This document shows positions 1,231-17,873 of a stretch of 17,873 nucleotides of DNA, one piece after another. Numbering within the stretch: the first letter of the stretch is position 1; each line of letters begins with the position of its first letter. This DNA comes from Candidatus Fermentibacterales bacterium (lineage in GTDB: Bacteria; Fermentibacterota; Fermentibacteria; Fermentibacterales; JAFGKQ01), in the NCBI GenBank assembly GCA_016928495.1, contig JAFGKQ010000141.1:1-17873 (forward strand), in the 5' to 3' direction. Under the pieces are notes generated by a model. The model saw nothing but the letters and a program-made list of their open reading frames with translations. It had not been told where the DNA came from and ran no database searches. Position numbers and translations under genes: made by a program.

Positions 1231-2829
1231 TCACCTGAGAACGACGGCTGCCGGGACCCTGCCGTCCATCCAGACACGATCGGCATCCGGAGGGACGAAC
1301 CCCTCGGTGACTACTGCTTCGACACCTGCCGAGTCGAGCCATCTCTCGGCAGGCGCTGAGGGCCATTCGTTGAGAATACGGGCCGTCTCCGGGTAGTCCC
1401 GGGGCAGGCTGGTCGCGTAGCCGTTGACCATCGGAGTGAAGGAGGCCATCGAGCCGTAGAGCCGCAGGCACTCGGGCTCGGGCCTGTCGAACGAGGGGAA
1501 CATGGGCAGGATGACCACCGACTCCACCCCCCTCGCGGAAATCCAGTCGTGATAGGGGGGTGGCCTAACCGCTATGAGATCGAGGGGCGGGTGCATGACC
1601 TCCGCGATCGCAAGCAGTCCCAGGAGCCACGGAACGAACCTCCGCGCTCTCTGAAGCGTGGCCCCCGCTATGACGCACGCAGGAAGAAGGAAGAGGAAGC
1701 CCATCCTTCCCGGCAATCGGATCGAGGCGAAGCCGGGGATCCACGCCAGCAGCCTCCAGGGGGCGGGGGCGATCCCGCGCCCTCCCAGCGATACCGTGGG
1801 CCCTACGATCACGAGGGCCGAGAGGAGCCCGAGACAGATCAGAAAGCCCTCCATTGCCGGAGCCGATCCCGAGGAGCGGGCCTTCTTCCGGAGCCTGGCG
1901 AACCAGGCGACCAGGCAGCCGACGACGATCAGGCCGGGCCAGAGAGCTGCCTCGCCGGCCAGGAAGGAGGGGCGCGCCCAGCCCTCCAGGATGCTGCTCT
2001 CCCACGGCGCCAGGAAGGCCGCGAGGTCGGTGGAGGTCATCGTGTCGGGACACCATGTGACCGCATTGGAGAGCTGATTCCCGAGCAGCGGGAGCATGAG
2101 CAGGTTCCCGAGAAGCAGCCCGCACAGGAGCGCGGCCAGAGCGGGAAGCCGGCGGGGTCCTCCCATGCGTCCCAGGGCGACGAAGACGGCGAGAAGGAGC
2201 AGCGCGATGTCCAGGAAGACCAGGTAGTAGAGGGAGGCGCAGCCCTGCAGCAGGATCAACAGGCTCAGCAGAAGGGCGCTCGGGACCGGTCCGGGCCCCC
2301 TGCCCAGTGCCATCCTCACGCTCTGCGCCAGTGCCAGCACGGAGAGGCCGCAGGAGGCGAGCTGAACGTGCCAGAGATGGCTCTGGAAGAAGGGTGTCGC
2401 CGCGAAGGCGGTCCCGGCGAACCAGGCTGCCGCAACCGACAGCCCGACGGATCTCGAGAACAGGTAGGCAGACAGGCCACAGAGCGCGATCGAGAGCACC
2501 AGGATCAGGTTGTGAGCCCCGAGAGGGGAGATGCCCAGTAGCCTGAGCGGGATCGCCAGTATGGCCTGAGTGAGGAGCAGATCGCTTCGTCCGTCTGCGT
2601 CGGGCTGGCCCAGGAAGATCGGCAGGTCCATGGGGTCGGAGCCCGAGAGCAGGGCGTGATGGTTCCATGCCATCAGCCACGTGTTGAAGAGGCTGTCCGC
2701 GTGGTCGTAGGCCCCGTGCCCGGCCCGCGGCAGCATCGGCCAGGTGAGCAGCGCCGCGAGAGCAACGAAGTAGAGCGCCAGAGCGGCGGGACGGGCGAGC
2801 AGCCGCAATCGATGCCCGGCAGAGGCCAT
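1231..2829 (-). CDS. GT-C-like polytopic membrane protein (glycosyltransferase-like)
   Basis: The protein is 532 aa. I chose the ATG at 2829 because it follows the proS stop by 8 bases, has AGGA just upstream, and opens with a normal N-terminal membrane helix. The frame is open to 3066, but that part lies inside proS and reads as nonsense. TM1 (about 15-32) is followed by a luminal/periplasmic loop YDHADSLFNTWLMAW (D42, D45). This acidic loop after TM1 is typical of GT-C lipid-sugar-dependent glycosyltransferases and related YfhO/DolP-mannosyltransferase-like proteins. Roughly ten or more hydrophobic segments follow, including a poly-Leu stretch, then a soluble C-terminal domain of about 120 residues ending in AAVVLR. 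It probably acts in the inner membrane on a polyprenyl-linked sugar. Acceptor and donor are unknown. The proS linkage looks positional rather than functional. Confidence 0.7.
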   Translation of the reverse strand: MASAGHRLRLLARPAALALYFVALAALLTWPMLPRAGHGAYDHADSLFNTWLMAWNHHALLSGSDPMDLPIFLGQPDADGRSDLLLTQAILAIPLRLLGISPLGAHNLILVLSIALCGLSAYLFSRSVGLSVAAAWFAGTAFAATPFFQSHLWHVQLASCGLSVLALAQSVRMALGRGPGPVPSALLLSLLILLQGCASLYYLVFLDIALLLLAVFVALGRMGGPRRLPALAALLCGLLLGNLLMLPLLGNQLSNAVTWCPDTMTSTDLAAFLAPWESSILEGWARPSFLAGEAALWPGLIVVGCLVAWFARLRKKARSSGSAPAMEGFLICLGLLSALVIVGPTVSLGGRGIAPAPWRLLAWIPGFASIRLPGRMGFLFLLPACVIAGATLQRARRFVPWLLGLLAIAEVMHPPLDLIAVRPPPYHDWISARGVESVVILPMFPSFDRPEPECLRLYGSMASFTPMVNGYATSLPRDYPETARILNEWPSAPAERWLDSAGVEAVVTEGFVPPDADRVWMDGRVPAAVVLR

Positions 2830-2837
2830 AGATCCTG

Positions 2838-4283
2838 CTAGTAGGCCCTGGCTATGACCGCGATCCTGTCGGTCTCCCTGCCCGAGACGACGCACCTGCC
2901 GCTCGTTCCGGGCTGGTCTATGGGGATGCACCGGACGGTGGCCTTGGTCTCCTCCTGGAGCCTCTCCTCGTCCTCGCGGGAACCATCCCAGTAGCACCTG
3001 AAGAAGCCGCCCTTCTCCTCGATCAGCCTCGAGAGCTCGGCATAGTCGGAGACTTCCGTCGTCCATCCCTCCCTGCGCTCGAGGGCCTGATCGTAGAGCT
3101 CGGCCTGTATCTCGTCCAGGATCCGCCTGATCCCGGCGGCGATGCCCTCGTCCAGCGGAAGGCTGTGCTTGCCTTCGCTGCCCGGTCTCGATCTCCGGGC
3201 AGCGGTCACGCTTCCGCTCTCGAGGTCTCTCGGGCCGATCTCGATCCTCAGGGGGACCCCTCTCACCTCCCAGTAGTTGAACTTGAAGCCCGGGCTCTGG
3301 GTGTCCCTGTCATCCAGCCTGACGCGCAGCCCGTCCTCGGCCAGCCTTGCTCTGAGCCTCTGGCACTCCTCGAGGACAGCAGCCCTTGTGTCATCACCAC
3401 GCCATATGGGGACCACCACCACCTGGATGGGGGCCAGTCCGGGAGGAAGCCTGAGGCCATGCTCGTCCCCGTGGGCCATTATCACAGCCCCCACCATCCT
3501 GGTAGAGACGCCCCAGCTCGTCTGATGGACGTACTCCAGCTCGTTGGCTTCGTTCAGGAACTGGATGTTGAAGGCGCGTGCGAAGTTGGTCCCGAGGTAG
3601 TGACTGGTCCCCGCCTGCAGGGCCCAGCCGTTGCCCATCATCGCCTCGATGGAGTAGCTGTCCACGGCACCGGGGAACTTCTCCCTCTCCGTCTTGATGC
3701 CCGGTATCACTGGAATCGCGGCATCCTCGACGGCGAATGACTCGTAGACCCGCAGCATCCTCAGGGCCTCCTCGACGGCTTCCTGCTTGCTGGCGTGGGC
3801 GGTGTGACCTTCCTGCCAGAGGAACTCCGTTGTCCTGAGGAAGGGCCTGGTTCTGAGCTCCCATCTGACGACGTTGGCCCACTGGTTGATCAGCAGGGGA
3901 AGGTCCCGGTAGGACTGGACCCACTTCGCGAACATGTAGTTTATGATGGTCTCGGAGGTCGGTCTCACTATCAGGGGCTCTTCGAGCTCCCTGCCTCCCC
4001 CGTGTGTGACCACCGCCAGCTCGGGCGCGAAGCCCTCCACGTGCTCGGACTCCTTGTCTATGAAGCTCTTGGGTATGAAGAGGGGGAAGTAGGCGTTCTC
4101 GTGCCCGGTCTCCCGGAAGCGGCGGTCCAGCCCGGCCCTGATTGCCTCCCAGATAGCGTAGCCGTAAGGCCTTATGACCATGCACCCCCGGACCGGAGCC
4201 TTGTCCGCCAGCTCGGCTTCCCGGATCACGTCCTGGTACCATCTGGCGTAGTCTGTGCGTGGGGAGGTGATGTTCTCGGCCAT
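2838..4283 (-). CDS. proS: Prolyl-tRNA synthetase, type 3 (archaeal/eukaryote-like)
   Basis: The enzyme charges tRNA-Pro with proline in the cytoplasm. The 481-aa length is right for the short type 3 ProRS without the editing insertion. The ATG at 4283 (MAENITSPRTDY) is preferred because GGAAGG lies 7 bases upstream; the open frame to 4346 adds 21 unlikely residues. Class II landmarks are clear: RPTSETI at 108-114, the motif 2 region FLRTTEFLWQEGHTAH at about 148-163, QAGTSHYLGTNFA in the middle, and AHGDEHGLRLPPGLAP (motif 3 side) leading into the anticodon-binding domain. The C-terminal domain ends ARAY, the conserved terminal tyrosine. Of the zinc-site cysteines, those in RCYWDG, VRCIP and GRCVVSG remain, but the CxxC second Cys is Ser. 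This resembles the zinc-less bacterial type 3 enzymes. Confidence 0.95.
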   Translation of the reverse strand: MAENITSPRTDYARWYQDVIREAELADKAPVRGCMVIRPYGYAIWEAIRAGLDRRFRETGHENAYFPLFIPKSFIDKESEHVEGFAPELAVVTHGGGRELEEPLIVRPTSETIINYMFAKWVQSYRDLPLLINQWANVVRWELRTRPFLRTTEFLWQEGHTAHASKQEAVEEALRMLRVYESFAVEDAAIPVIPGIKTEREKFPGAVDSYSIEAMMGNGWALQAGTSHYLGTNFARAFNIQFLNEANELEYVHQTSWGVSTRMVGAVIMAHGDEHGLRLPPGLAPIQVVVVPIWRGDDTRAAVLEECQRLRARLAEDGLRVRLDDRDTQSPGFKFNYWEVRGVPLRIEIGPRDLESGSVTAARRSRPGSEGKHSLPLDEGIAAGIRRILDEIQAELYDQALERREGWTTEVSDYAELSRLIEEKGGFFRCYWDGSREDEERLQEETKATVRCIPIDQPGTSGRCVVSGRETDRIAVIARAY

Positions 4284-4641: not shown

Positions 4642-5586
4642 ATGACGGCGGACAGATGGAAGAAGCTGCTCAGCCGGGTCCTGGTCAGAGACAGGGGCTA
4701 CGCCCTGATCCTGGGCGTGGGCTTCGTCTACTCGATCGCAGTAAGCGTCATACCACTCTTCCGGGCCGTTCCCTGCTTCCCGCTGCAGCTCCTGGTCTGG
4801 GTCCTGATCCTGCTCCTGTACATCGACAACGGGATACCGGACACCGTCAAGAGGTGGTTCTTCTACGTATTCCTCACGCTGTCCTACCAGTCTCTCAGGA
4901 GCGTTGTGGTTACCTATGCGATGGAGTTCCACGGCAGGGGCATCGCCGCATTCGAGGCAGAGCTGTTCGGAAGACTGCCCTCCGAGATACTGCAGAACCT
5001 CCTCTACACCAGGGGCCAGACCGCCTGGTACGACGCCGCGTTCGCCGTGCTGCACGCGTCTCTCTTCGCCCTGCCGATACTGGCGCCCCTGGTCGTCCTC
5101 CTGCTCAGGGGGAAGGAGAGGATGAAGAGGGCCACGGTTGCCTTCGTGCTGCTCAGCCTGGCCGGCTACCTGACCTACGTGCTCTTCCCGGTGACTCCAC
5201 CGTGGATGGCCAGTCTCGAGGGCTTCGTTCCGCCGTTAGACAGGGTCGTCTTCAGCGCCCTGAGGGAGATCACGAACCCCTGGCTGGCCAGCGCGTTCCA
5301 GCCCAGCCCTCGGGGTGCGATGCCCTCGCTCCATACGGCCGTGCCTTTCCTCATGCTGCTCGTCTTCAGGAGGGAGCTGGGCAGGAAGGCACTATGGATC
5401 TCCGTCTACGTGGCGGCGATCTGCTTCGAGATCGTCTATGGCGCCGAGCACTACGTGCTGGACATCGTGGCGGGCATTGCCTATGCCATTCTCGCCTACT
5501 GGCTGGTCTACAGGGTCCTCTATCCGGACGAGCGCCTTCAGGAGAGGGCGCCGGAGATCGGAGAACGGAAGCCGCAACATGACTGA
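4642..5586 (+). CDS. PAP2-superfamily membrane phosphatase/transferase, IPC-synthase-like (PAP2_3)
   Basis: The protein has 314 aa and about six or more hydrophobic segments. The active-site motifs of the PAP2 fold are present: FPVTPPW at 182-188, MPSLH at 227-231 (catalytic-side His 231) and GAEHYVLD at 267-274 (His 270, Asp 274). The TPPW plus PSLH plus HYxxD arrangement is that of inositol-phosphorylceramide synthase (AUR1)-type PAP2 proteins. The enzyme therefore either hydrolyses a lipid or polyprenyl phosphate or transfers a phospho-headgroup between lipids at the outer membrane-facing side of the inner membrane. The ATG is supported by in-frame stops just upstream; the ribosome-binding site is weak (GGGGCGG). 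It is the first gene of the operon and overlaps panB by 8 bases. Superfamily is sure; the reaction is not. Confidence 0.85.
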   Translation: MTADRWKKLLSRVLVRDRGYALILGVGFVYSIAVSVIPLFRAVPCFPLQLLVWVLILLLYIDNGIPDTVKRWFFYVFLTLSYQSLRSVVVTYAMEFHGRGIAAFEAELFGRLPSEILQNLLYTRGQTAWYDAAFAVLHASLFALPILAPLVVLLLRGKERMKRATVAFVLLSLAGYLTYVLFPVTPPWMASLEGFVPPLDRVVFSALREITNPWLASAFQPSPRGAMPSLHTAVPFLMLLVFRRELGRKALWISVYVAAICFEIVYGAEHYVLDIVAGIAYAILAYWLVYRVLYPDERLQERAPEIGERKPQHD

Positions 5587-8741: not shown

Positions 8742-9887
8742 CTATCTTCCCAGGACGGCGATCATCAGTGCGCGGGCAAGGCTCAGGGGGCTCATCAGGA
8801 TGTTCGAGTAGGCCTGGTTGGCCAGAGGGCAGGCGCACTCACCCCTCCTGATGGAGCGCCTGCGGTCCCTTGCCTGGAGGGAGCGCCATATCTCCCCGAA
8901 GCTGCCGTCCCTGCCGACGGTCCCCATGCTGCCCTCGTAGCCGAGCACCGCACAGGGCCAGATGTCTCCGTCCGAGTTGATGTGGACGTTCAGCAGGCCC
9001 GCGTAGCAGGGTATCGCCTGGCTGCCCTCGCTCACTATCCTGGGGGCCAGGTCGTAGTAGACGATCCTCATGGCGGTCGTCAGCCGGGAGAGAAGGCCCA
9101 TCCCCCGCAGCTCCGACCTGACCGAGCTCTTGAAGATCTCCATCACCCCCCTGTAGTCCGGGCCCGATGGAGTGATGCCCGTGCCCGTGTTGTGGAACTC
9201 GCTCCTCTCCTCCGCGATCTCGTTGATGTAGGTGCTCACGTTCCATCTGGAAGCGGCGTAGTCTATTATCTCCTGGAGCCTGTCTATGTTGAGCGTGGAG
9301 ACCACCGTCCCGAGGCCGACCTGGAGAGACGTGCTCAGCTTCGCAAGCCCGAGCAGGACGTCCATGGTCTCGCAGAGCTTCTCGAAGTTGCCCGGCACTC
9401 CCCTGATCTCGTCATGGAGGCTCCCCACACCGTCGAAGGAAGGCTTCACCGTGAGCGTGGCTCCGCTGCCGCATCGCGACATCTGCTCCAGGCACCTCTG
9501 CGTCAGCTCACCGATCCGCCGGGGCATCAGGGCATTGGTGGGTATGTGGATGACGGCCGGATCGAGGATCCTGCACGCTGCGCCGACAATGTCCGGTAGA
9601 TCGTCTCTGAGGTAGGGCTCACCCCCGGAGATGTTGAAGAAGTAGGTCCAGCCGATCGAGCCGAGCAGGCCCTCTATCTCGGCAATCGAAAGCTCCGGGC
9701 GCGGAGGGTGCTTCCATATCAGGCAGGTCCTGCATCTGGACTGGCAGCGCGTCGTAACCGAGAAGGTGACGTTTATCGGCCTCGGCGGCGGTGACAACCC
9801 CCACCTGGCCAGCCTCGCCCCAAGCACGCTGCGGGCCAGCCGGGCGATCTGGCGGATCCCGCCCAGGCCATGCTTCCCGGCGCTCAT
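8742..9887 (-). CDS. Radical SAM protein with SPASM-like C-terminal cysteine domain
   Basis: The protein is 381 aa. The 4Fe-4S radical SAM motif CxxxCxxC is at C48, C52 and C55 (TTRCQSRCRTC), followed by a conserved SAM-binding GGEP at 88-91. The C-terminal part holds four cysteines, C294 (IPCYAG), C312 (IWPCAVLG), C351 and C353 (ECAC), around NSDGDIWPC. This is a reduced SPASM/twitch-like pattern that could hold one auxiliary cluster. The N-terminal ~30 residues form a basic amphipathic helix, and the last ~20 (PLSLARALMIAVLGR) are hydrophobic, so membrane association is plausible. Substrate is unknown. Its start overlaps the YfhO stop by 4 bases, so it is translated as the last gene of the glycan operon and probably works on that product. 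A peptide-modifying role is the alternative, but no small precursor peptide is seen nearby. Confidence 0.85.
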   Translation of the reverse strand: MSAGKHGLGGIRQIARLARSVLGARLARWGLSPPPRPINVTFSVTTRCQSRCRTCLIWKHPPRPELSIAEIEGLLGSIGWTYFFNISGGEPYLRDDLPDIVGAACRILDPAVIHIPTNALMPRRIGELTQRCLEQMSRCGSGATLTVKPSFDGVGSLHDEIRGVPGNFEKLCETMDVLLGLAKLSTSLQVGLGTVVSTLNIDRLQEIIDYAASRWNVSTYINEIAEERSEFHNTGTGITPSGPDYRGVMEIFKSSVRSELRGMGLLSRLTTAMRIVYYDLAPRIVSEGSQAIPCYAGLLNVHINSDGDIWPCAVLGYEGSMGTVGRDGSFGEIWRSLQARDRRRSIRRGECACPLANQAYSNILMSPLSLARALMIAVLGR

Positions 9888-12331
9888 CGAGGGTCCTCCG
9901 CTCCGGTCAGGGCCGCGCGGGTCCCCTTTCTCGACCTCAGCAGCGAGAGCAGGACGAGAAGGCCCGAGGCGAGCATGGTCAGGAGCGTGATGAGGAGGCC
10001 CCCGGTGACGAGGCTGCCGTCATACCACATCTCCACCACGGCGCCGTCGGGGCATGCCGGAAGCGCCAGGGCCCGTTGCCAGTGGTTGGCCCTGAGCACC
10101 GGAGTCGGCGCCCCGTCCACCGAAGCCCTCCACCTGTCGTACCAGGTGTCGGCCACCACCAGGAGCCCGGGCCTGTCTCTTGTCACCCGGAGCACTATCC
10201 TGGCCGGCTCGTCCGAGATAAGCTCGATACTGCCTCCCGAGCCGGTGGAGTCGGGCAGACCGGCTGGCTCGGTCTCGAGGAGCGTGTGCCCGAGAGGATC
10301 CAGCCCCTGAGCCATGGCGGTTCTCATGTCGGGGATGTCGCACACGGACCATGAGGCGGCGAGGAAGAAGCGTGGGAGCGGCCCTGGAGGTATCGCGGAG
10401 GCGACCATGGCCGAGTCTGCCGCCCGGGAGGCGGAGTCCGCCGAGGCCGCGACCTGCGAGAGGATCATCTCCCTGACCTCCCCGTAGGGCACTAGCCGAT
10501 TGTCCGCCTGGAAGTAGTCGGCGGCGGTCTGCCTGATGAGAAGCACCGCGGAGATGTCGTCCCTGGCCGTCTGGAGAGCTGCAAGCATCTCGTCAGTCAC
10601 CTCGAGCTTGGCGGCATGGTAGCCCACTACGGAAGCGACGCCATGGAGCATGAGCCTGTTCTCTCCCGGATAGACCCTGGTGACGCCGTCCGCGCCGGAA
10701 GGCGCCCGGCTTCCGCCGTATGCCTCCTCGACCGTGTCGTAGGGCAGGTAGTACTGGAAATCCCTGTCGAGCGGGATGAGCTCCCATCCGGCAACCAGCA
10801 GCAAGCCAGCCAGCAGGGCGGTCCTCCAGCCCCTGAACCGGGCTCTCGGGATCAGGAGCAGGAACACGACGGCGAGACCCACCAGCGCCGCTCTGTAGAG
10901 GTCGGTTCTCGCCATGTCGACCCTGGCCCTGACCACCGCCCCGACCTGCGAGCCCGCCGCCCCCATCCTCTCCCACCAGCCCTGCTGAGCGGAGGACACG
11001 ATGGGTCCGGCGAGCAGACCGGCCAGGAGGAGAAGAGCACTGAGCCCTGCAACGATCCGGAGCAGCAGCCTGGATCGCTTCAGAGCGGCGTCGCTCTGCT
11101 GGAGGACAGAGTCGAGGCCCACGCCCGCAAGCAGCGGCAGCACCGAGGACGGCAGCAGCATGGCGATATGGGGAGCCCGCAGCTTCCTGAAGAAGGGCAC
11201 GATCCTGTAGAGCAGGCCGTAGATAGGGGTGTAGCCGCCCCAGGCGATCAGCAGCCCCGCAAGACCCACCAGGAGCATGGGCAGGCTCAGGCGCCTGCGG
11301 CCCGAGAGCGATCCGGCGATGGCTAGAAGGAAGACGCTCAGGCCCAGGAACTCGCTGCTGAGGCGAAGCCCCAGCCTTCCCCAGTAGAGGGGAACGCCCG
11401 AGATGGCGCTGTCGGGGAAGCCGTGCCTGTAGCCGAACAGGTGGGGCAGCACCATGGTCAGGCTCTCCTCGGGCGGTAGAGAGTAGCTCGCCGATGTCGA
11501 GAGATCGAGGCCCTCGCCCCGGGTCGAGCTGGCGGAGAAGTGCATGCCCGGAAGCAACTGGACGGCGCCCGTCCCGATTCCGAGGGCGAGTATCACTGCG
11601 AGTCCCACCGCTGCGGAGGACAGCGATCGAAGCCGCCCGGCGGCCCGCCCGACTAGGGATCTGCAGGCTCCCCATGCGATCGCAGCGCCGAAGCTGTACA
11701 TCATGACCTGGGGGTGACTGGCGAGCGCCTGCGCACCCAGGGCCAGGCCGCCTATCGCGAGAAAGCGGGCACGCTCGAGTGCGCCGGGGCGTTGTGCATC
11801 GGGCTCCGCGCCCGGCGAGAGCCAGCCTTCGACCGCATAGAGCAGCAGTGGCAGATAGCTCCAGCACACTACTTTGCTCCCGTGACCCGCGTAGAATAGC
11901 GTGTTCGCCCAGGCTCCCGAGCAGAAGGCGAAGCCTCCGAAAAGGCTCCCGTGTACGCCCAGCCCGATCCTTCGAAGGAAGAGATAGGCGAAAACGCCCC
12001 CGAGAAGCATGTGGAGCGGGAAGCTCAGCCTCGCGAAGGCCTCGACGCCTCCCAGCAGCAGGAGCAGCCCTCTAGGGAAGTAGAAGAGCGGAACGGAGAA
12101 CGACGAATAGAAGGGAGTCCCGCAGAAGACCATGGGGTTCCAGTGCGGGAACTGGCCCTGCGAGATCATCGTTGAGGCCAGCCCGAGGAAAGGGTAGCCC
12201 TGGTGCTCCGTATCGCTCATCGGGCCGCCGGGCAGTCCCCGTGCCAGTATGGACCTGTCGTAGACCAGGAAGGTCGCGATCAGGAACACCAGCACCGCCG
12301 CCGCGAAGCCCCTGCCTGCTCTCCCCGTCAT
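9884..12331 (-). CDS. YfhO-family polytopic membrane protein (GT-C-like)
   Basis: The protein is 815 aa. The ATG at 12331 overlaps the previous stop (ATGA) and has GGAG 9 bases upstream. The frame is open to 13186, but that part is a shadow of the neighbouring gene. The N-terminal TM1 (about 9-24) leads to a loop with MSDTEHQGYPF (D40) and PHWNPMVFCGTPF (62-74), typical of bacterial YfhO (PF09586) proteins. About a dozen membrane segments follow. The C-terminal ~280 residues are largely soluble, with TDEML, a likely β-rich VLRVTRDRPGLLVVADTWYD segment and a last TM helix before a basic tail (LLRSRKGTR). YfhO proteins are linked to glycosylation of teichoic acids or other surface glycans with a lipid-phosphate-sugar donor. 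Here that donor would be the GT2 product. Function in this organism is inferred. Confidence 0.85.
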   Translation of the reverse strand: MTGRAGRGFAAAVLVFLIATFLVYDRSILARGLPGGPMSDTEHQGYPFLGLASTMISQGQFPHWNPMVFCGTPFYSSFSVPLFYFPRGLLLLLGGVEAFARLSFPLHMLLGGVFAYLFLRRIGLGVHGSLFGGFAFCSGAWANTLFYAGHGSKVVCWSYLPLLLYAVEGWLSPGAEPDAQRPGALERARFLAIGGLALGAQALASHPQVMMYSFGAAIAWGACRSLVGRAAGRLRSLSSAAVGLAVILALGIGTGAVQLLPGMHFSASSTRGEGLDLSTSASYSLPPEESLTMVLPHLFGYRHGFPDSAISGVPLYWGRLGLRLSSEFLGLSVFLLAIAGSLSGRRRLSLPMLLVGLAGLLIAWGGYTPIYGLLYRIVPFFRKLRAPHIAMLLPSSVLPLLAGVGLDSVLQQSDAALKRSRLLLRIVAGLSALLLLAGLLAGPIVSSAQQGWWERMGAAGSQVGAVVRARVDMARTDLYRAALVGLAVVFLLLIPRARFRGWRTALLAGLLLVAGWELIPLDRDFQYYLPYDTVEEAYGGSRAPSGADGVTRVYPGENRLMLHGVASVVGYHAAKLEVTDEMLAALQTARDDISAVLLIRQTAADYFQADNRLVPYGEVREMILSQVAASADSASRAADSAMVASAIPPGPLPRFFLAASWSVCDIPDMRTAMAQGLDPLGHTLLETEPAGLPDSTGSGGSIELISDEPARIVLRVTRDRPGLLVVADTWYDRWRASVDGAPTPVLRANHWQRALALPACPDGAVVEMWYDGSLVTGGLLITLLTMLASGLLVLLSLLRSRKGTRAALTGAEDPR

Positions 12332-13320
12332 GGCTCTCTTCTCCGGGCAGGATCCGTCGGTCCTGACTGAGGGTTGCGCCTGCCGGCGCTCCCGAACAGA
12401 TGTCTCATGTGGCGGGCAAAGGCAACCGCCGTGACAAGCTCGATGAGGCCGAGCACAACCCTCTGGCCGAAGAGCAGCAGCAGGAGAGGCCCTCGGCCCT
12501 GCGTCACGGAGATCAGGGACGCCAGTACTCCTTCCCTGACTCCGATTCCTCCCGGTATGAGGAAGGCGACGTAGCCTGCCAGCCAGGCCAGCGGGGTCGC
12601 CAGGAAGACCATCGCGGGCTCCACGCCCTCCAGCCGGAACGCTATCAGCCAGAAGAACAGCGAGGCCCCTCTCGCCGCCCAGAGACCGCTGTACAGAAGC
12701 ACCGCCCTTGCGATCGTAGCGGTGGGAACTACTGCCCGCGCGTCGCTCCCGCCTCTCGCCCTCCGCGACAGCAGCAGCTTCTGGACCGGAGAGAGCAGAG
12801 GAAGCACCAGGAACAGCGCTGCCGAGACCACGGACAGGGTCCTGACATGACTGGAGATGCGGCCGGCCTCCACCCACCATACCGACGCAAAGACGACGAG
12901 TCCGACCGATGCCATCGTCAGGAGCATCTCCATGCCGGTCGTGAAGGCAGCCCTCTTCATGCTCATCCCCCTGGACCGGAGGTAGCCTGCTCTGCCGGCG
13001 AGAAGCCAGACCTTGCCCGGCACGTAGCGGCCGAGCTGACTGACGAACCATGCCGACCGGAGCTCTCTCCGGGAGGCATCGCAGCTCATTGCCCTGCAGA
13101 GCCAGACCCAGCCCTGGGGCGTGAGAAGGTAGGAGAGCGCGAGAAGCAGGATCGAGAGGAGCAACGGCAACAGGTCGACGCGCCATTCGGTGGCGCGGAT
13201 CTCGGCAAGCCAGGCGCTGCCCCTGCTGAGAAGGACCACCGCCGCTGCGAGGATGAACAGCGCCGCCACCACGATGCCTGCGGCGCGCTTGACGGCGGAT
13301 GGCGAGAGCGGCCCCTTCAT
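12328..13320 (-). CDS. Flippase-like LPG_synthase_TM / UPF0104-family membrane protein
   Basis: The protein is 330 aa with about eight hydrophobic segments. The two family signatures are LGRYVPGKVW at 97-106 and FLIPGGIGVREG at 253-264. These mark the membrane domain shared by lysylphosphatidylglycerol synthase (MprF flippase domain), AglD and related proteins (PF03706). There is no soluble aminoacyl-transferase domain, so it is not MprF. Such stand-alone domains are common in glycosyltransferase clusters and are thought to move or handle lipid-linked intermediates. The gene overlaps the SDR gene upstream and YfhO downstream by 4 bases each. The C-terminus is a basic soluble tail (SAGRRNPQ onward). 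Confidence 0.85.
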   Translation of the reverse strand: MKGPLSPSAVKRAAGIVVAALFILAAAVVLLSRGSAWLAEIRATEWRVDLLPLLLSILLLALSYLLTPQGWVWLCRAMSCDASRRELRSAWFVSQLGRYVPGKVWLLAGRAGYLRSRGMSMKRAAFTTGMEMLLTMASVGLVVFASVWWVEAGRISSHVRTLSVVSAALFLVLPLLSPVQKLLLSRRARGGSDARAVVPTATIARAVLLYSGLWAARGASLFFWLIAFRLEGVEPAMVFLATPLAWLAGYVAFLIPGGIGVREGVLASLISVTQGRGPLLLLLFGQRVVLGLIELVTAVAFARHMRHLFGSAGRRNPQSGPTDPARRREP

Positions 13321-14216
13321 CGCCGGATCAGGCCCTGCGCGGCGTACCAGGAGGTCGTCGCAGCTATGCCCTCGCGCAGACCGGTCGAGGCCCTGAAGCC
13401 GGCCTGCCAGGCCTTGCCGGTAAGCACGTAGTGGCTCTTGCCGAACATCTCGACCCTGCTTCTCGAGAGGGCGCCGGGGGCAAGGGGTCCGAGCCTTGCC
13501 GCGAGCCTCAGAGCGGGCGCCGGTATCGGCAGCATCCTGACCCTGGTCCCCATCGAGCCGGCTATCTCCCTCACCAGATGCCTCATGCTCACCACGTCTG
13601 GCCCACCGATGTTGTAGACGTCGGCGCGCAGGCTGCCTCCCGGAAGGGCCGCGAGCACGGCTCTGCAGACGTCATCGACGTAGGTCGGCCTGAGCAGCGC
13701 CTTGCCGGAGCCGACCAGCGGAAACCAGCCCTTTGCCGCCCTCTGCCAGAGAGGCAGCTTGTGCCTGTCTCCCGGGCCGTAGACGAAGTCCGGGCGGAGG
13801 ATCGTCAGCCTTGCCCCGGCAACTCTCGCACGGAGCAGCTCTTCCGCTTCTGCCTTTGTCCTCTCGTACTCTCCCCAGGGCGCTGGAGGCAGGCTCTCGC
13901 CGGCTCCCGGAACCAGGCCGGTCACACCCGGCGTGCTCAGGTGGATGACGTGGAAGTCCCGCCCTGAGCCCCAGGCGTCCGCAACGATCTCCGGGACCCC
14001 GACGTTGGAGGCTCTCAGCTCCTCCATGGTCGCCCCGTGCCCGCCGAGCCTCCCGGCAGCGTTCACGAGCACATCGAACGGCAGCCCGAGGTGCCCCGGG
14101 TCCAGGTCCCCCATGGCTTCCCAGTCGTGGCGCTTCAGGTCATGCCCGGCTTCCGAGAGCAGGCAGCAGATCTTCGATCCGATGAAGCCTCCGGCGCCCA
14201 CCACGAAGACCCTCAA
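13317..14216 (-). CDS. Extended SDR family NAD(P)-dependent epimerase/dehydratase
   Basis: The protein is 299 aa. The Rossmann nucleotide-binding motif GAGGFIG is at 7-13, NAAG at 52-55, the catalytic YxxxK at Y117/K121 (EYERTKAE), then LRPDFVYGPGD and RPTYVDDVCRAV, all classic for nucleotide-sugar epimerases and related extended SDRs. The start is a TTG at 14216, 3 bases after the GT4 stop; the next in-frame GTG would cut into the first β-strand. The enzyme probably converts a nucleotide sugar used by the neighbouring glycosyltransferases, although it is on the short side for UDP-hexose 4-epimerases. The substrate cannot be read from the sequence. Confidence 0.88.
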   Translation of the reverse strand: MRVFVVGAGGFIGSKICCLLSEAGHDLKRHDWEAMGDLDPGHLGLPFDVLVNAAGRLGGHGATMEELRASNVGVPEIVADAWGSGRDFHVIHLSTPGVTGLVPGAGESLPPAPWGEYERTKAEAEELLRARVAGARLTILRPDFVYGPGDRHKLPLWQRAAKGWFPLVGSGKALLRPTYVDDVCRAVLAALPGGSLRADVYNIGGPDVVSMRHLVREIAGSMGTRVRMLPIPAPALRLAARLGPLAPGALSRSRVEMFGKSHYVLTGKAWQAGFRASTGLREGIAATTSWYAAQGLIRR

Positions 14217-14219
14217 GCC

Positions 14220-15332
14220 TCAGACCTCCTCCCCGAGAAGGCTCCTGGCGTAGATCTCCCAGTCGAACCGGCGCGCGAACTCCGCGATCCTCTCCGGAGT
14301 GTCCGGATGCGTCGCGATGGAGAGACACGCCTCGATGGCCCGCCTCAGGTCCTCGGGGTCGCCCGGTCGGGCCAGGAAGCCGGTGACTCCTTCCTCCACG
14401 AGCTCCGGCAGCCCTCCCGTGCGCGTCAGCACGAGGGGCTTGCGGAAGGCCAGGGCTATCTGCGCTACCCCGCTCTGGGTGGCGTGCCTGTAGGGGAGAG
14501 CGACGATATCGGCAGACTCGAAGAACCCGGCCACCTCGTCGGCCCCGACGAACCTGTCGACCCACACCGCGCGAGCCCCCATGCCGGAGGAGTGCAGGAT
14601 ACCCCTGATCTCGTCCGTCATTCCGTAGCTCTCTCCGACCATGAGCAGCCTTGCGTTCCCGGGAAGCCCCGATATCGCCAGGATGAGATCCGAGAGACCC
14701 TTGTATGGTCTTATCATGCCGAAGAAGAGGATCACCTTCTCATCAGGAGCGAAGCCCAGTGACTGCCGTTCTCTCTGACCGGAGACATCGGGCCTGACGT
14801 ATTGCTCGTAAGCGGGATGGTACAGCCTGAGCAGCTCCGCGCCCGGGGCAACTCCCCGGGCGGTCTCCATATCCTCCGTGCTGTGGACGACGACCAGGGA
14901 GCTCTTGGCCGCCAGTCTCCTGAAGAGCGCTGCCGCTCCGGGAAAGCGATCGTGGGGCAGCACGTTGTGGCAGACCAGCACGCTGCGCGAGGAGCTCTCC
15001 GGTGGAAGCGCCCCGGACAGCGCCGGGGCGAAGAAGGGGTGCCACCACTTCAGGATGATCCGGTCGGGGAGGTGTGACCGAAGCAGCTTCCGGACCGAGA
15101 GCCAGGATGGTGGCCAGCAGGAGTCCAGCATTCGGGCGGCGCGTGACCCCGAAGGCCCGGTGTCCGGCTCGTACTGGCTGGTGCCCGGGAACAGGATGCC
15201 CGGATAGAGCCTCGAGTAGCTGATGCGGATGACGTCGTGCCCCAGGCTCTCGAGGGTGTCGGACAGGATGCCGGTGAACTGGGCTATTCCTCCTCGATAG
15301 GGCGGGAAGGGCCCTATCAGGGCCACCTTCAT
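14220..15332 (-). CDS. Glycosyltransferase family 4 (GT-B fold)
   Basis: The protein is 370 aa. The N-terminal domain begins MKVALIGPFPPYRGGIAQF, with the usual Gly-rich donor/acceptor loop after β1. The C-terminal donor domain begins near 198 with VILFFGMIRPYKGLSDLI and ends in GGLPELVEEGVTGFLARPGDPEDL, typical of GT4. The usual EX7E first Glu region reads PYRHATQSGVAQIALAFRKP (280-299), with Ser/Gln in place of the acidic residue, a known sub-branch. It is expected to add a sugar to a lipid- or glycan-linked acceptor at the cytoplasmic membrane face. It overlaps the GT2 gene by 4 bases. Confidence 0.92.
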   Translation of the reverse strand: MKVALIGPFPPYRGGIAQFTGILSDTLESLGHDVIRISYSRLYPGILFPGTSQYEPDTGPSGSRAARMLDSCWPPSWLSVRKLLRSHLPDRIILKWWHPFFAPALSGALPPESSSRSVLVCHNVLPHDRFPGAAALFRRLAAKSSLVVVHSTEDMETARGVAPGAELLRLYHPAYEQYVRPDVSGQRERQSLGFAPDEKVILFFGMIRPYKGLSDLILAISGLPGNARLLMVGESYGMTDEIRGILHSSGMGARAVWVDRFVGADEVAGFFESADIVALPYRHATQSGVAQIALAFRKPLVLTRTGGLPELVEEGVTGFLARPGDPEDLRRAIEACLSIATHPDTPERIAEFARRFDWEIYARSLLGEEV

Positions 15333-16306
15333 GCGCTGCCGGCTTCCTCTCCGGAGCGGGTGGAATCACACTCCTCCACGATAGCGATGGGTCTTCTGGG
15401 AGCGTAGCTCAGCAGCATCTCGGCCAGGAGGCCGAGGGACACGAACTGGAAGCCGACGATCATCAGGAGCACCCCGAGCAGGAGAAGCGGGCGGCTGCCG
15501 ATGGGCTCGCCGGAGAACCAGAGGGCCGTCAGGTAGGCCGAGATCGCGAACCCGACCAGGGAGAGGAACAGGCCGAAGCCGGCGAAGAAGTGCAGCGGCC
15601 TGAACGAGTACCTGTGCAGGAAGAGAACGGTCGCCAGATCGGCGAAGCCCCTGAAGAAGCGAGAGACGCCGTACTTCGTCTTCCCGTGGAGGCGTGGCCT
15701 GTGGTTGACGGCCTTCTCTCCCACTCGATGTCCCTGCTGGGCGACGAGCACCGGGGTGTACCTGTGCATCTCGCCATACAGGTCGAGCTGCCTGGCAACC
15801 TCTCCCCGGTAGACCTTCAGGCCGCAGTTGAAGTCGTGCAGGGGCAGTCCGGTAGTCAGCCGGACGGCCCAGTTGAAGACCCTCGATGGAATCGTCTTGG
15901 TAGGCGGGTCTTGCCTCCTCTTCTTCCAGCCGCTCACGAGCCCCAGTCCCTCTCGCTCGAGCTGCCCGATCATCGCCGGGATCTCCAGCGGGTCGTCCTG
16001 CAGGTCCGCATCGACCGTGGCGACGAAGAGCCCTCTGGACCTGGAGAAGCCTTCGGAGAGGGCGGCAGCCTTGCCCCGGTTGGCCCCGAAACGGACTGCC
16101 CGCAACGGGAACCTTTTCGAGAGCTCCAGGATGGCCTCCCAGGAGCCGTCCGTGCTTCCGTCGTCGATGATGACTATCTCGTATGTCATCCCGGACAGGG
16201 CGCCAGAGATCTCCCCGCAGAGCTGCGGCAGGCTCTCCGCCTCGTTGAAGCAGGGGATCACTACGCTGATCGTGGGCCGGGTGCCCCCGGCGGCTCTGTC
16301 GTCCAT
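15329..16306 (-). CDS. GT2 family polyprenyl-phosphate glycosyltransferase (DPM1/ArnC/GtrB-like)
   Basis: The protein is 325 aa. The GT-A domain shows TISVVIPCFNEAESL (12-26), DDGSTDGSW (48-56), the DXD-type DADLQDDP (99-106), NCGLKVYRGE (160-169) and RPRLHGKTKYG (203-213). Two C-terminal TM hairpin helices lie at about 237-263 and 273-300, followed by a short cytoplasmic tail. This is the layout of enzymes that transfer a sugar from a nucleotide donor to undecaprenyl or dolichyl phosphate at the inner membrane. The ATG at 16306 has no ribosome-binding site, yet a promoter sits directly in front of it, so the first gene of the operon may be read from a nearly leaderless message. Donor sugar unknown. 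Confidence 0.93.
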   Translation of the reverse strand: MDDRAAGGTRPTISVVIPCFNEAESLPQLCGEISGALSGMTYEIVIIDDGSTDGSWEAILELSKRFPLRAVRFGANRGKAAALSEGFSRSRGLFVATVDADLQDDPLEIPAMIGQLEREGLGLVSGWKKRRQDPPTKTIPSRVFNWAVRLTTGLPLHDFNCGLKVYRGEVARQLDLYGEMHRYTPVLVAQQGHRVGEKAVNHRPRLHGKTKYGVSRFFRGFADLATVLFLHRYSFRPLHFFAGFGLFLSLVGFAISAYLTALWFSGEPIGSRPLLLLGVLLMIVGFQFVSLGLLAEMLLSYAPRRPIAIVEECDSTRSGEEAGSA

Positions 16307-16345: not shown

Positions 16346-16437
16346 ACGGGGCATGATCCGAGACCAGATAGGACTTGCCCGTCCGATTCTCACGGGGCGT
16401 GATCCGCAACCAGACCGAATTCGCCCGTCCGATCGTC
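16346..16437. repeat. Diverged 46-bp tandem duplication at the lpxH 3' end
   Basis: Two head-to-tail 46-base units, 16346-16391 and 16392-16437, match at 36 of 46 positions by my alignment. The second encodes the last 15 residues of LpxH (DDRTGEFGLVADHAP). The first, after the stop codon, would encode ENRTGKSYLVSDHAP in its own frame, followed by SR and TGA. Each unit also carries an imperfect inverted repeat (GACGGGC with GCCCCGT). Confidence 0.85.
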
Positions 16438-17130
16438 TATCGTGGCGAAGCTCCGGTGCGAGATCCAGTCACCCAGGGAGATGTGGATGCCCCTCTCGAA
16501 GCCGGTTATCAGTGGGACGTGGGTGTGCCCTGTGATGACTATCCTCACGTCGTCTCTGGCGTCCAGGGTCTCGGAGACCCAGTCCAGGAGTCCCTTCGGG
16601 ATGCTGTCGACCTCCCTGCGCAGGATCCGCTTGCTCGTGCCGGAAGCCATGCGGGCGATGCGATTGCCGACGCCCTCGGGCAGGCCGCCGAACAGCCTGG
16701 CCGACAGCCTCGCGCGAAGCAGCGGCCGCAGGATGAGCCTGTAGCCGTAGTCGCCCCCGCCGAGAGCGTCGCCGTGGGCGAGAAGGGCGTTGCCTCCCTG
16801 GAGCTTCAGGGTGAAGGGGTCCCCGATCAGATGGAAGCCCGTCGATTCCTCGAACCTGCCGTCAAGCCAGAAGTCATGGTTGCCCGGGATCATGCTGCCG
16901 GACCAGCCGGAGTCCGTCAGGGCGCGCAGAGAACGGAGCACCCTCTCGAAGCCGGCCGGCATCCTGCCCCTGAACTCGAACCAGAAGTCGAACAGGTCGC
17001 CCAGGATCCAGAGAGATCCTGGCTCGCGATCCGTCGCCAGACTCCCGAGGAAGCGGATCAGGGCTTCCCTGCCGGGGTGCTCGAGCGGCTCCGGGAAGAG
17101 GTGGGCGTCACTCAGGAAGTAGTGGGTCAT
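16390..17130 (-). CDS. lpxH: UDP-2,3-diacylglucosamine diphosphatase (LpxH-like)
   Basis: The enzyme cleaves UDP-2,3-diacylglucosamine to lipid X and UMP in lipid A synthesis, at the inner face of the inner membrane. At 246 aa it matches the LpxH length. Metallophosphatase motifs are in order: SDAHL with D8/H10, GDLFDFW with D45, GNHDF with N84/H85, AHGD with H119 and GHTHVP with H202/H204, then SLGDW as in LpxH. The ATG at 17130 lies 23 bases inside the preceding lipoprotein gene and is the only start that keeps β1, so coupling is likely. The C-terminus ends at a stop formed by the tandem-duplication junction. Other calcineurin-like phosphoesterases are possible; the GDW and 240-250 aa size favour LpxH. 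Confidence 0.82.
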   Translation of the reverse strand: MTHYFLSDAHLFPEPLEHPGREALIRFLGSLATDREPGSLWILGDLFDFWFEFRGRMPAGFERVLRSLRALTDSGWSGSMIPGNHDFWLDGRFEESTGFHLIGDPFTLKLQGGNALLAHGDALGGGDYGYRLILRPLLRARLSARLFGGLPEGVGNRIARMASGTSKRILRREVDSIPKGLLDWVSETLDARDDVRIVITGHTHVPLITGFERGIHISLGDWISHRSFATIDDRTGEFGLVADHAP

Positions 17131-17716
17131 CCTGCGGCTGGGCCGCGACGGTATCCCTGGCGGCCTCCACGAAGAGCGAGTCGAGAGCGGGGCATGACCG
17201 CACGAGCCTCATGGCTGCGCCATGGCCCGTCTCTGCCCTGATGTCCGGGCCATGCGCCAGAAGCGCGACCGGCATGCCGCGACACGAGTCGAAGAAGAAG
17301 CAGGCGAGGCTTCCGTCTCCCAGGCATACCTGCAGGTCGCTGCCGGCTGCCTGGAGCCCGTACTGCGCTATGTGCCGGGAGACGGAATCGAGCTGCACCG
17401 GCACCACGAGGACGCCGCCCAGGGCACTTATGCTGTCGAGCTGCATCAGGTCGCGCTCCTCCTGGGGATAGTCCGGCATCGGTATCCATGTGTAGAGGAG
17501 GACGTACGGCTCCGTGGAAGGGTCCAGGGTGTCACCCTCGAGGGTCCATACGGCACCGGGCAGTTGCGTGACCCGTGCGGCGGACCGGAGCGTGTCGGCA
17601 GCCTCGGATGCGTCGTTGCCGTCGGACCTGCAGGCAATGGAGGACAGCGCCGGGGGCAGCAGTGCTGCAGGCAGCAGCCGCAGGGCCATCGAGGTGATGC
17701 GTCCGCGCAGGTTCAT
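17108..17716 (-). CDS. Putative lipoprotein with thioredoxin-like fold lacking CxxC
   Basis: The protein is 202 aa. The ATG at 17716 overlaps the previous stop by one base (TGATG). A basic N-terminus and hydrophobic stretch (ALRLLPAALLPPALSSIAC) end in a lipobox-like SIAC with C29. The following segment (WTLEGDTL, then YVLLYTWIPMPDYPQEERDLMQLDSI, then GVLVVPVQLD, then GMPVALL with P149) has the order of a TlpA/redoxin-type thioredoxin fold: β1, the active-site turn WxPMPDYP at 77-84 where CxxC would be, and the cis-proline loop. The two catalytic cysteines are missing; remaining cysteines (C131, C139, C145, C175) do not form a CxxC. I infer a non-redox or altered role in the periplasm. Function unknown. 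The frame is open to 17824, but that part overlaps the previous gene. Confidence 0.6.
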   Translation of the reverse strand: MNLRGRITSMALRLLPAALLPPALSSIACRSDGNDASEAADTLRSAARVTQLPGAVWTLEGDTLDPSTEPYVLLYTWIPMPDYPQEERDLMQLDSISALGGVLVVPVQLDSVSRHIAQYGLQAAGSDLQVCLGDGSLACFFFDSCRGMPVALLAHGPDIRAETGHGAAMRLVRSCPALDSLFVEAARDTVAAQPQDDPLLPE

Positions 17717-17873
17717 CAGAGGCCGTCCGGGTCGAGCAGTGAGGCCGTGAGGAACGAAAGGGCTGAATCGCATGACGCAACCGAGACCAGCTCCCCGCCG
17801 CCGAGTGCGACTGTCGAGACCCACAGGCCGGCTCTGGAACGTGCGCTGCTGCCGCTGACGAAGGGGAGGCCGA
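17716..17873 (-). CDS. C-terminal end of an unknown protein (partial)
   Basis: About 51 residues are visible before the stop (17718-17716), running from GLPFVSGSSARSRAGL to LTASLLDPDGL. The 5' part lies beyond the right edge. It is judged real because its TGA overlaps the ATG of the lipoprotein gene by one base, the codon pattern fits, and no other frame explains this stretch. I do not recognise the family. Confidence 0.5.
   Translation of the reverse strand, partial: GLPFVSGSSARSRAGLWVSTVALGGGELVSVASCDSALSFLTASLLDPDGL

Follow-up and report, generated by a model that had tools for sequence, protein, structure and literature searches.

A putative transmembrane glycosylation operon with a twitch-type radical SAM enzyme, conserved in Fermentibacterota

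The window analysed here is the whole 17,873-nucleotide stretch at positions 1 to 17,873 of contig JAFGKQ010000141.1 (contig C231) of Candidatus Fermentibacterales bacterium (GCA_016928495.1), from the uncultured phylum Fermentibacterota; the genome is a 2.3 Mb MAG that is 81% complete. It carries a conserved operon, well supported as one for transmembrane glycosylation with a radical SAM step. In our main reading, to which we give a probability of about 0.4, this would be glycosylation of the ArnC / CsbB-YfhO type with the radical step acting on the lipid-linked sugar at the membrane. We observed directly the gene order, a domain fusion, the homologies, the cysteine pattern, the linkage to a GT4 and the sole LpxH candidate. 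The fusion, the GT4 linkage, the twitch type of the radical SAM enzyme and the sole LpxH candidate are new relative to the earlier note on this DNA. We would group the operon with the known multi-component glycosylation pathways as a variant, and its protein architecture may be new.

Six coupled genes on the minus strand encode GT2, GT4, SDR, LPG_synthase_TM, YfhO-like and radical SAM proteins, in that order (Table 1). Start and stop codons were checked, and the junctions in order from GT2 were a 4-nt overlap, a 3-nt gap and then three 4-nt overlaps. This agreed with the coupling of six genes by four overlaps and one gap claimed in the earlier note, whose coordinates were right, and its identification of a glycan operon is supported. 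The complete lipid-linked sugar pathway that the note saw in these genes is a putative one. Matches in Pfam and NCBIfam back the labels GT2, GT4, SDR, LPG_synthase_TM and radical SAM + SPASM. The order and the coupling stood but the extent of six genes did not, as the LpxH-like and lipoprotein genes belong to the same conserved string. The coupling is more than chance because the order is kept in intact loci of the same bacterial order.

Table 1. Genes of the conserved string in the window.
Feature	Position	Strand	Basis or remark
Putative lipoprotein	17108..17824	-	uncertain start; heads the conserved string within the window
LpxH-like UDP-2,3-diacylglucosamine diphosphatase	16390..17130	-	PRK05340, TIGR01854, LpxH structures
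GT2, ArnC/GtrB-type polyprenyl-phosphate glycosyltransferase (putative)	15329..16306	-	ArnC structures; Pfam/NCBIfam
GT4, radical-SAM-associated subfamily	14220..15332	-	Pfam Glycos_transf_1; linkage across phyla
Extended SDR, NAD-dependent epimerase/dehydratase family, TTG start	13317..14216	-	PF01370 E 5.5e-20
LPG_synthase_TM membrane protein (MprF-flippase-like), copy 1	12328..13320	-	PF03706 E 1.1e-13
YfhO-like multi-TM protein, probable GT-C glycosyltransferase	9884..12331	-	orthologues match PF09586
Twitch-type radical SAM enzyme, free protein in the window	8742..9887	-	PF04055 + PF13186

The GT2 protein matched ArnC structures over residues 12-298 (E 2.7e-39), ArnC being closest among solved structures, and it also matched GtrB (sll0501) structures over its full length. 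Its score against PRK10714 was 143 bits, under the cut-off of 529, and hydropathy indicated 2 C-terminal TM segments. By these structure matches it is a putative polyprenyl-phosphate GT-A enzyme. GxxGxxG and YxxxK were both read in the SDR sequence. The window YfhO-like protein itself fell under detection and matched no YfhO model, so its label rests on orthologues, with PF09586 matched by 15 of 18 aligned orthologues or homologues (best E 1.1e-14). The roles given to the YfhO-like and LPG_synthase_TM proteins are putative ones, assigned from family only. The putative lipoprotein had no match in Pfam or NCBIfam; it has syntenic homologues in relatives at 30-36% identity, and a lipobox-like LSSIAC was read by eye in its translation.

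We compared the loci of the same order in the fetched regions L039-L058, with L052 left out. All intact loci had the order lipoprotein, LpxH-like, GT2, GT4, SDR, LPG_synthase_TM, YfhO-like and radical SAM, with operon proteins at 35-65% identity, and a convergent string of PAP2, panB, purD, purE and tsaC genes usually lay opposite the operon. Since this order is kept in the intact loci, the operon comprises at least 7-8 genes and is older than the families of its order. The tree places the window radical SAM protein next to Candidatus Fermentibacter, within a Fermentibacterota clade of good support (100/99). The protein has a long branch and an unusual composition there, so its exact place is less sure than the clade. 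An extra gene of 249 aa adjoined YfhO in three loci (L045:4671-5420, L048:4625-5374 and L108), and the copy in L048 is a SAM-dependent methyltransferase by Pfam.

Exactly seven cysteines were invariant among 81 sequences of the radical SAM protein. Three of them (C48, C52 and C55) form the CxxxCxxC motif of the SAM cluster, with PF04055 over cut-off, and the other four, the only conserved C-terminal cysteines, are those of the predicted auxiliary cluster (C294, C312, C351 and C353). A C-terminal domain with one auxiliary cluster and four cysteines defines the twitch type, and the window enzyme has a CxC pair as in SkfB and four ligands as in BtrN (PMC6231123). Because there are four conserved C-terminal cysteines, we assign it to the twitch type, with one SAM cluster and one predicted auxiliary cluster. 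The seven-cysteine SPASM motif for two auxiliary clusters was absent from the conserved C-terminal cysteines, though PF13186 was over cut-off; twitch-type is a better label than the 'SPASM-like' of the earlier note. Invariant polar residues in the 81 sequences include K148, D152, Y220, E223, E230, R274, Y277 and Y278, which are candidates for substrate binding.

NeoN is a late-stage radical sugar epimerase, and in radical epimerases of the NeoN and EpeE type a conserved cysteine is the hydrogen donor. The window enzyme might likewise epimerise a sugar within the lipid-linked glycan, for which NeoN is a precedent and EpeE a fold match (Z 16). We consider this very improbable, since there is no eighth invariant cysteine beyond the seven cluster ligands in the 81 sequences, which speaks against a cysteine-donor epimerase.

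The AlphaFold model of the window radical SAM protein (pLDDT 92.7) matched the folds of SkfB (Z 23.0), BlsE (22.8), SuiB (21.6), anSME (21.3), DesII (19.2) and BtrN (17.2). BlsE, DesII and BtrN, among the closest solved folds, are enzymes with sugar or cyclitol substrates, and SkfB and other peptide maturases were as near in fold as the sugar enzymes. The fold alone therefore does not decide the substrate, and twitch/SPASM sequence is no predictor of function (PMC6231123). The enzyme resembles BtrN, SkfB, BlsE and DesII (Z 17-23) in its radical SAM core and its four-cysteine auxiliary site with the CxC of SkfB, but differs from these twitch/SPASM enzymes in its low identity to them (~15-19%) and in its membrane-linked, glycan-associated context. 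Against the characterised equivalog models listed, its scores stayed under threshold.

With SkfB as the best fold match, several peptide maturases ranking high and a putative lipoprotein gene at the head of the operon, the enzyme could instead be a maturase whose target is a protein or peptide, such as a glycoprotein acceptor or the lipoprotein encoded by the first gene. This seems unlikely, as the model consists of core, twitch domain and short helix and lacks an additional peptide-binding domain at the N-terminus, the operon showed no gene for a small precursor peptide, the neighbours across phyla are glycan genes, and the radical SAM clusters outside Fermentibacterota occur without the lipoprotein. 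Modification of the lipid itself, in the polyprenyl or acyl chain as by Tes (tetraether synthase), would fit the membrane fusion described below and the presence of Tes/GDGT-MAS among the matches (profile E 2.6e-5, fold Z 16.4). However, the Tes equivalog NF045702 was matched at 36.9 bits against a cut-off of 450, the match covers the common radical SAM core only, and the neighbours are sugar genes rather than lipid genes, and we hold this reading to be improbable.

The radical SAM domain was fused to an LPG_synthase_TM domain in 37 of the 38 orthologues of the same order, counting three that are cut or broken. Open frames of ~700 aa were found in 34 of the 38, compared with 381 aa for the window protein. 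By Pfam, the N-terminal half of the ~700-aa protein is a second LPG_synthase_TM domain and the C-terminal half is radical SAM + SPASM. The three further orthologues were cut by contig ends or broken, and in these the upstream frame was still visible in the fused position. The fused domain (copy 2) is a paralogue of operon copy 1 (97-120 bits), and the model of the fused protein had a mean pLDDT of 85. We ruled out an open-frame artefact by the Pfam domains and the recurrence of the fusion. Unfused radical SAM proteins were found only in the window and in genome G001 (locus L051), and as fused relatives surround both of them in the tree, the simplest account is that each has lost the domain. 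The flippase domain missing from the window may lie elsewhere in its genome, the MAG being 81% complete, but the other LPG_synthase_TM gene open to comparison was no closer to copy 2 than to copy 1. Outside Fermentibacterota we did not find the fusion, and the N-terminal extensions in L064, L076, L102 and L130 were without TM segments.

A profile of the LPG_synthase_TM sequences from these loci matched MprF structures (E 4e-5). Most relatives resemble MprF in joining an LPG_synthase_TM flippase domain to a cytoplasmic catalytic domain. In contrast to MprF, the C-terminal aminoacyl-PG synthase domain is absent and the relatives carry radical SAM + SPASM in its stead, while the radical SAM domain of the window stands alone, unfused. 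Because most relatives fuse the enzyme to a flippase-like domain, and flippases are its neighbours elsewhere, we place the radical step at the membrane: it probably acts there, and a membrane-linked sugar is the favoured substrate. A more far-reaching proposal is that an MprF-like flippase with a radical SAM half would edit an inner-leaflet lipid-linked glycan before flipping it. This would make it a new bifunctional envelope protein. It would represent, in fused form, a GT4-radical SAM module that spans phyla and makes a surface sugar not yet described, in archaea as well as bacteria. We advance this proposal tentatively.

A scan of genome contigs yielded 141 confirmed relatives of the radical SAM protein. 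We retained the best 80, which had at least 48% identity to the query over most of the length. These best 80 of 141 came from Fermentibacterota, Thermodesulfobacteriota, Myxococcota, Planctomycetota, Chloroflexota, Bacillota (above all Lachnospiraceae), Gemmatimonadota, Armatimonadota and several archaea. In plasmid records there were only distant radical SAM matches, with no Brachyspira among the organisms listed for them. The plasmid sugar cluster of Brachyspira hyodysenteriae, likened here by gene description alone, also has a radical SAM gene beside a group 1 GT and an NAD-dependent epimerase (PMC4267127).

Partners were counted within 5 kb of the radical SAM gene at 56 loci outside Fermentibacterota, each with at least 4 kb of flank. 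GT2 or GT4 was present at 39 of the 56 loci, an SDR at 31, a methyltransferase-like gene at 21 and a flippase at 25 (Wzx 16, LPG_synthase_TM 9), and 50 of the 56 had a GT, SDR or flippase. The homologues are therefore not found mostly away from glycosyltransferase clusters, a possibility raised in the earlier note. Its key pair of YfhO and radical SAM did not survive the same census: YfhO was nearby at 1 of the 56 loci, which ruled out a conserved pair. GT2 and LpxH genes were not general partners of the family outside Fermentibacterota either. The direct upstream neighbours by Pfam were most often GT4 (14 of 53), SDR (9) and Wzx (8). What recurs beside the enzyme is a single GT4 subfamily, together with an SDR and a flippase of the Wzx or LPG_synthase_TM kind. 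Four-gene runs of GT4, radical SAM, SDR and Methyltransf_11 were seen in L072 and L111 (Desulfobacterota-type), and a run of GT4, radical SAM and SDR in Butyrivibrio (L087). Two DUF362 proteins, of which one has a 4Fe-4S domain, are encoded close to a radical SAM and YfhO pair in an Armatimonadetes MAG (L084:2540-5112).

Such neighbours would also suit an enzyme acting on a soluble nucleotide sugar in the manner of DesII or BlsE, upstream of the GT4 and together with the SDR, with proximity to flippases reflecting cluster membership only. In its favour, the closest folds include DesII and BlsE, SDR genes often lie directly beside the radical SAM gene (18 of the 94 adjacent same-strand genes) and the GT4 is the best-conserved partner. 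This alternative leaves unexplained the flippase-like fusion through most of Fermentibacterota and, as a weaker point, the amphipathic, basic N-terminal helix seen in several radical SAM members; we regard it as a serious alternative, but a doubtful one.

The GT4s near radical SAM genes mostly scored 110-250 bits against the window GT4, compared with 58 bits for the best solved GT4. A match to the window GT4 was present in 24 of 25 genomes searched whole, and in 20 of these 24 the best genomic match shared a contig with the radical SAM gene and lay no more than 15 kb from it (distances from two tables), compared with ~1% expected by position alone, the genomes having been picked by the length of their contigs after the loci were labelled, a possible bias. 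The exceptions were G088 (42 kb), G090, G097 and G107. The background was 306 GT4 matches in 51.3 Mb from 14 genomes, or one per 168 kb. Of 26 loci flanked by 8 kb or more on each side, 22 contained the radical-SAM-associated GT4. The scores and the genome-wide linkage together indicate that the partner is not just any GT4. Pairwise distances of the radical SAM and GT4 proteins were correlated (r 0.85, a value reached by none of 2000 permutations; r 0.50 among pairs with <65% radical SAM identity), as expected for joint inheritance or joint transfer. Few loci held two GT4s, and a comparison of the best-scoring with the nearest GT4 within loci was uninformative.

The LpxH-like protein matched LpxH structures (E 3e-21) and scored 103 bits against PRK05340 (cut-off 134) and 96 bits against TIGR01854 (cut-off 190). 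It was the sole TIGR01854 match per genome in all 8 genomes tested, at the operon position or on the radical SAM contig. No LpxI match was found in the same 8 genomes, and LpxB was present in all of them. Of 42 genomes in the order, 37 had an LpxC match, that of the window among them. G001 is 98% complete and has the operon with its unfused radical SAM gene and LpxB, and gave no LpxC match; because LpxB is present, we did not read this as a loss of lipid A. The place of the sole LpxH candidate of these 8 genomes in the operon suggests that the operon is linked to lipid A. If the LpxH-like protein is a working LpxH, lipid A synthesis and the glycan pathway would be transcriptionally linked, with LPS/lipid A a natural acceptor. 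Lipid A as acceptor is the weakest link of the model.

From these data we infer the carrier, the order of steps, the reaction, the flipping and the acceptor as follows. The ArnC-like GT2 would charge a polyprenyl-phosphate carrier with a sugar, which the GT4 and the SDR would extend and edit. The twitch-type radical SAM enzyme, at the cytoplasmic surface of the membrane beside the MprF-like LPG_synthase_TM protein, would modify the lipid-linked sugar before flipping. In BtrN the fully ligated auxiliary cluster is thought to accept the second electron in alcohol oxidation (PMC9012708), and by analogy the reaction here would most likely be a two-electron oxidation in which the auxiliary cluster takes up an electron. 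The LPG_synthase_TM protein would then bring the product to the other side of the membrane, where the YfhO-like GT-C would transfer it to an acceptor in the envelope. LPS/lipid A is the probable acceptor, given that the sole LpxH candidate lies in this operon. At loci elsewhere the Wzx-type neighbours point to Und-PP oligosaccharides and not to Und-P-monosaccharides, so the substrate on the lipid may be a different one.

CsbB, a flippase and YfhO are a known set for charging, flipping and transfer (PMC8035078). Like CsbB/GtcA/YfhO, the operon combines a putative GT-A enzyme that ends in TM helices with a flippase-like protein and a GT-C of the YfhO type (PMC8035078). It differs in having LPG_synthase_TM instead of a GtrA-type flippase, in the additional GT4, SDR, LpxH-like and radical SAM genes, and in its diderm host with lipid A genes. 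No GtrA-type small flippase was found in the operon, where LPG_synthase_TM is the only other multi-TM protein. With the Arn pathway it shares a GT2 closest to ArnC and a likely lipid A link through LpxH, but the final transferase is YfhO-like and a radical SAM step is added. ArnA, ArnB, ArnD and a PMT-type ArnT had no match among the operon genes.

To our knowledge, radical SAM enzymes acting on sugars come mostly from small-molecule antibiotic pathways, and we found no description of this family in a glycan or flippase context in the open-licence papers searched. If our reading is true, radical chemistry would have a part in surface-glycan synthesis in bacteria and archaea, through a widespread family that is tied to surface-glycan loci and joined to a flippase domain. 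Genetic and biochemical testing is feasible because cultivable isolates carry family members (Butyrivibrio hungatei NK4A153, Frisingicoccus caecimuris DSM 28559 and strain NaphS2).

Further genes were observed around the operon. A 337-aa REP-type transposase-like protein, recognised by eye in the L010 translation, is encoded directly behind the radical SAM gene at L039:10381-11394, L045:10127-11140 and L048:10057-11070. A second large membrane protein ORF lies downstream of proS on the minus strand of the window (1231-3066), and it is beside proS also in L047 and L049. On the plus strand, 4642-5586 encodes a PAP2-family membrane protein, which lies opposite the operon in much of the order. It matched phosphoinositol dihydroceramide synthase weakly (43.8 bits, cut-off 480), and could hint at inositol or sphingolipid chemistry.
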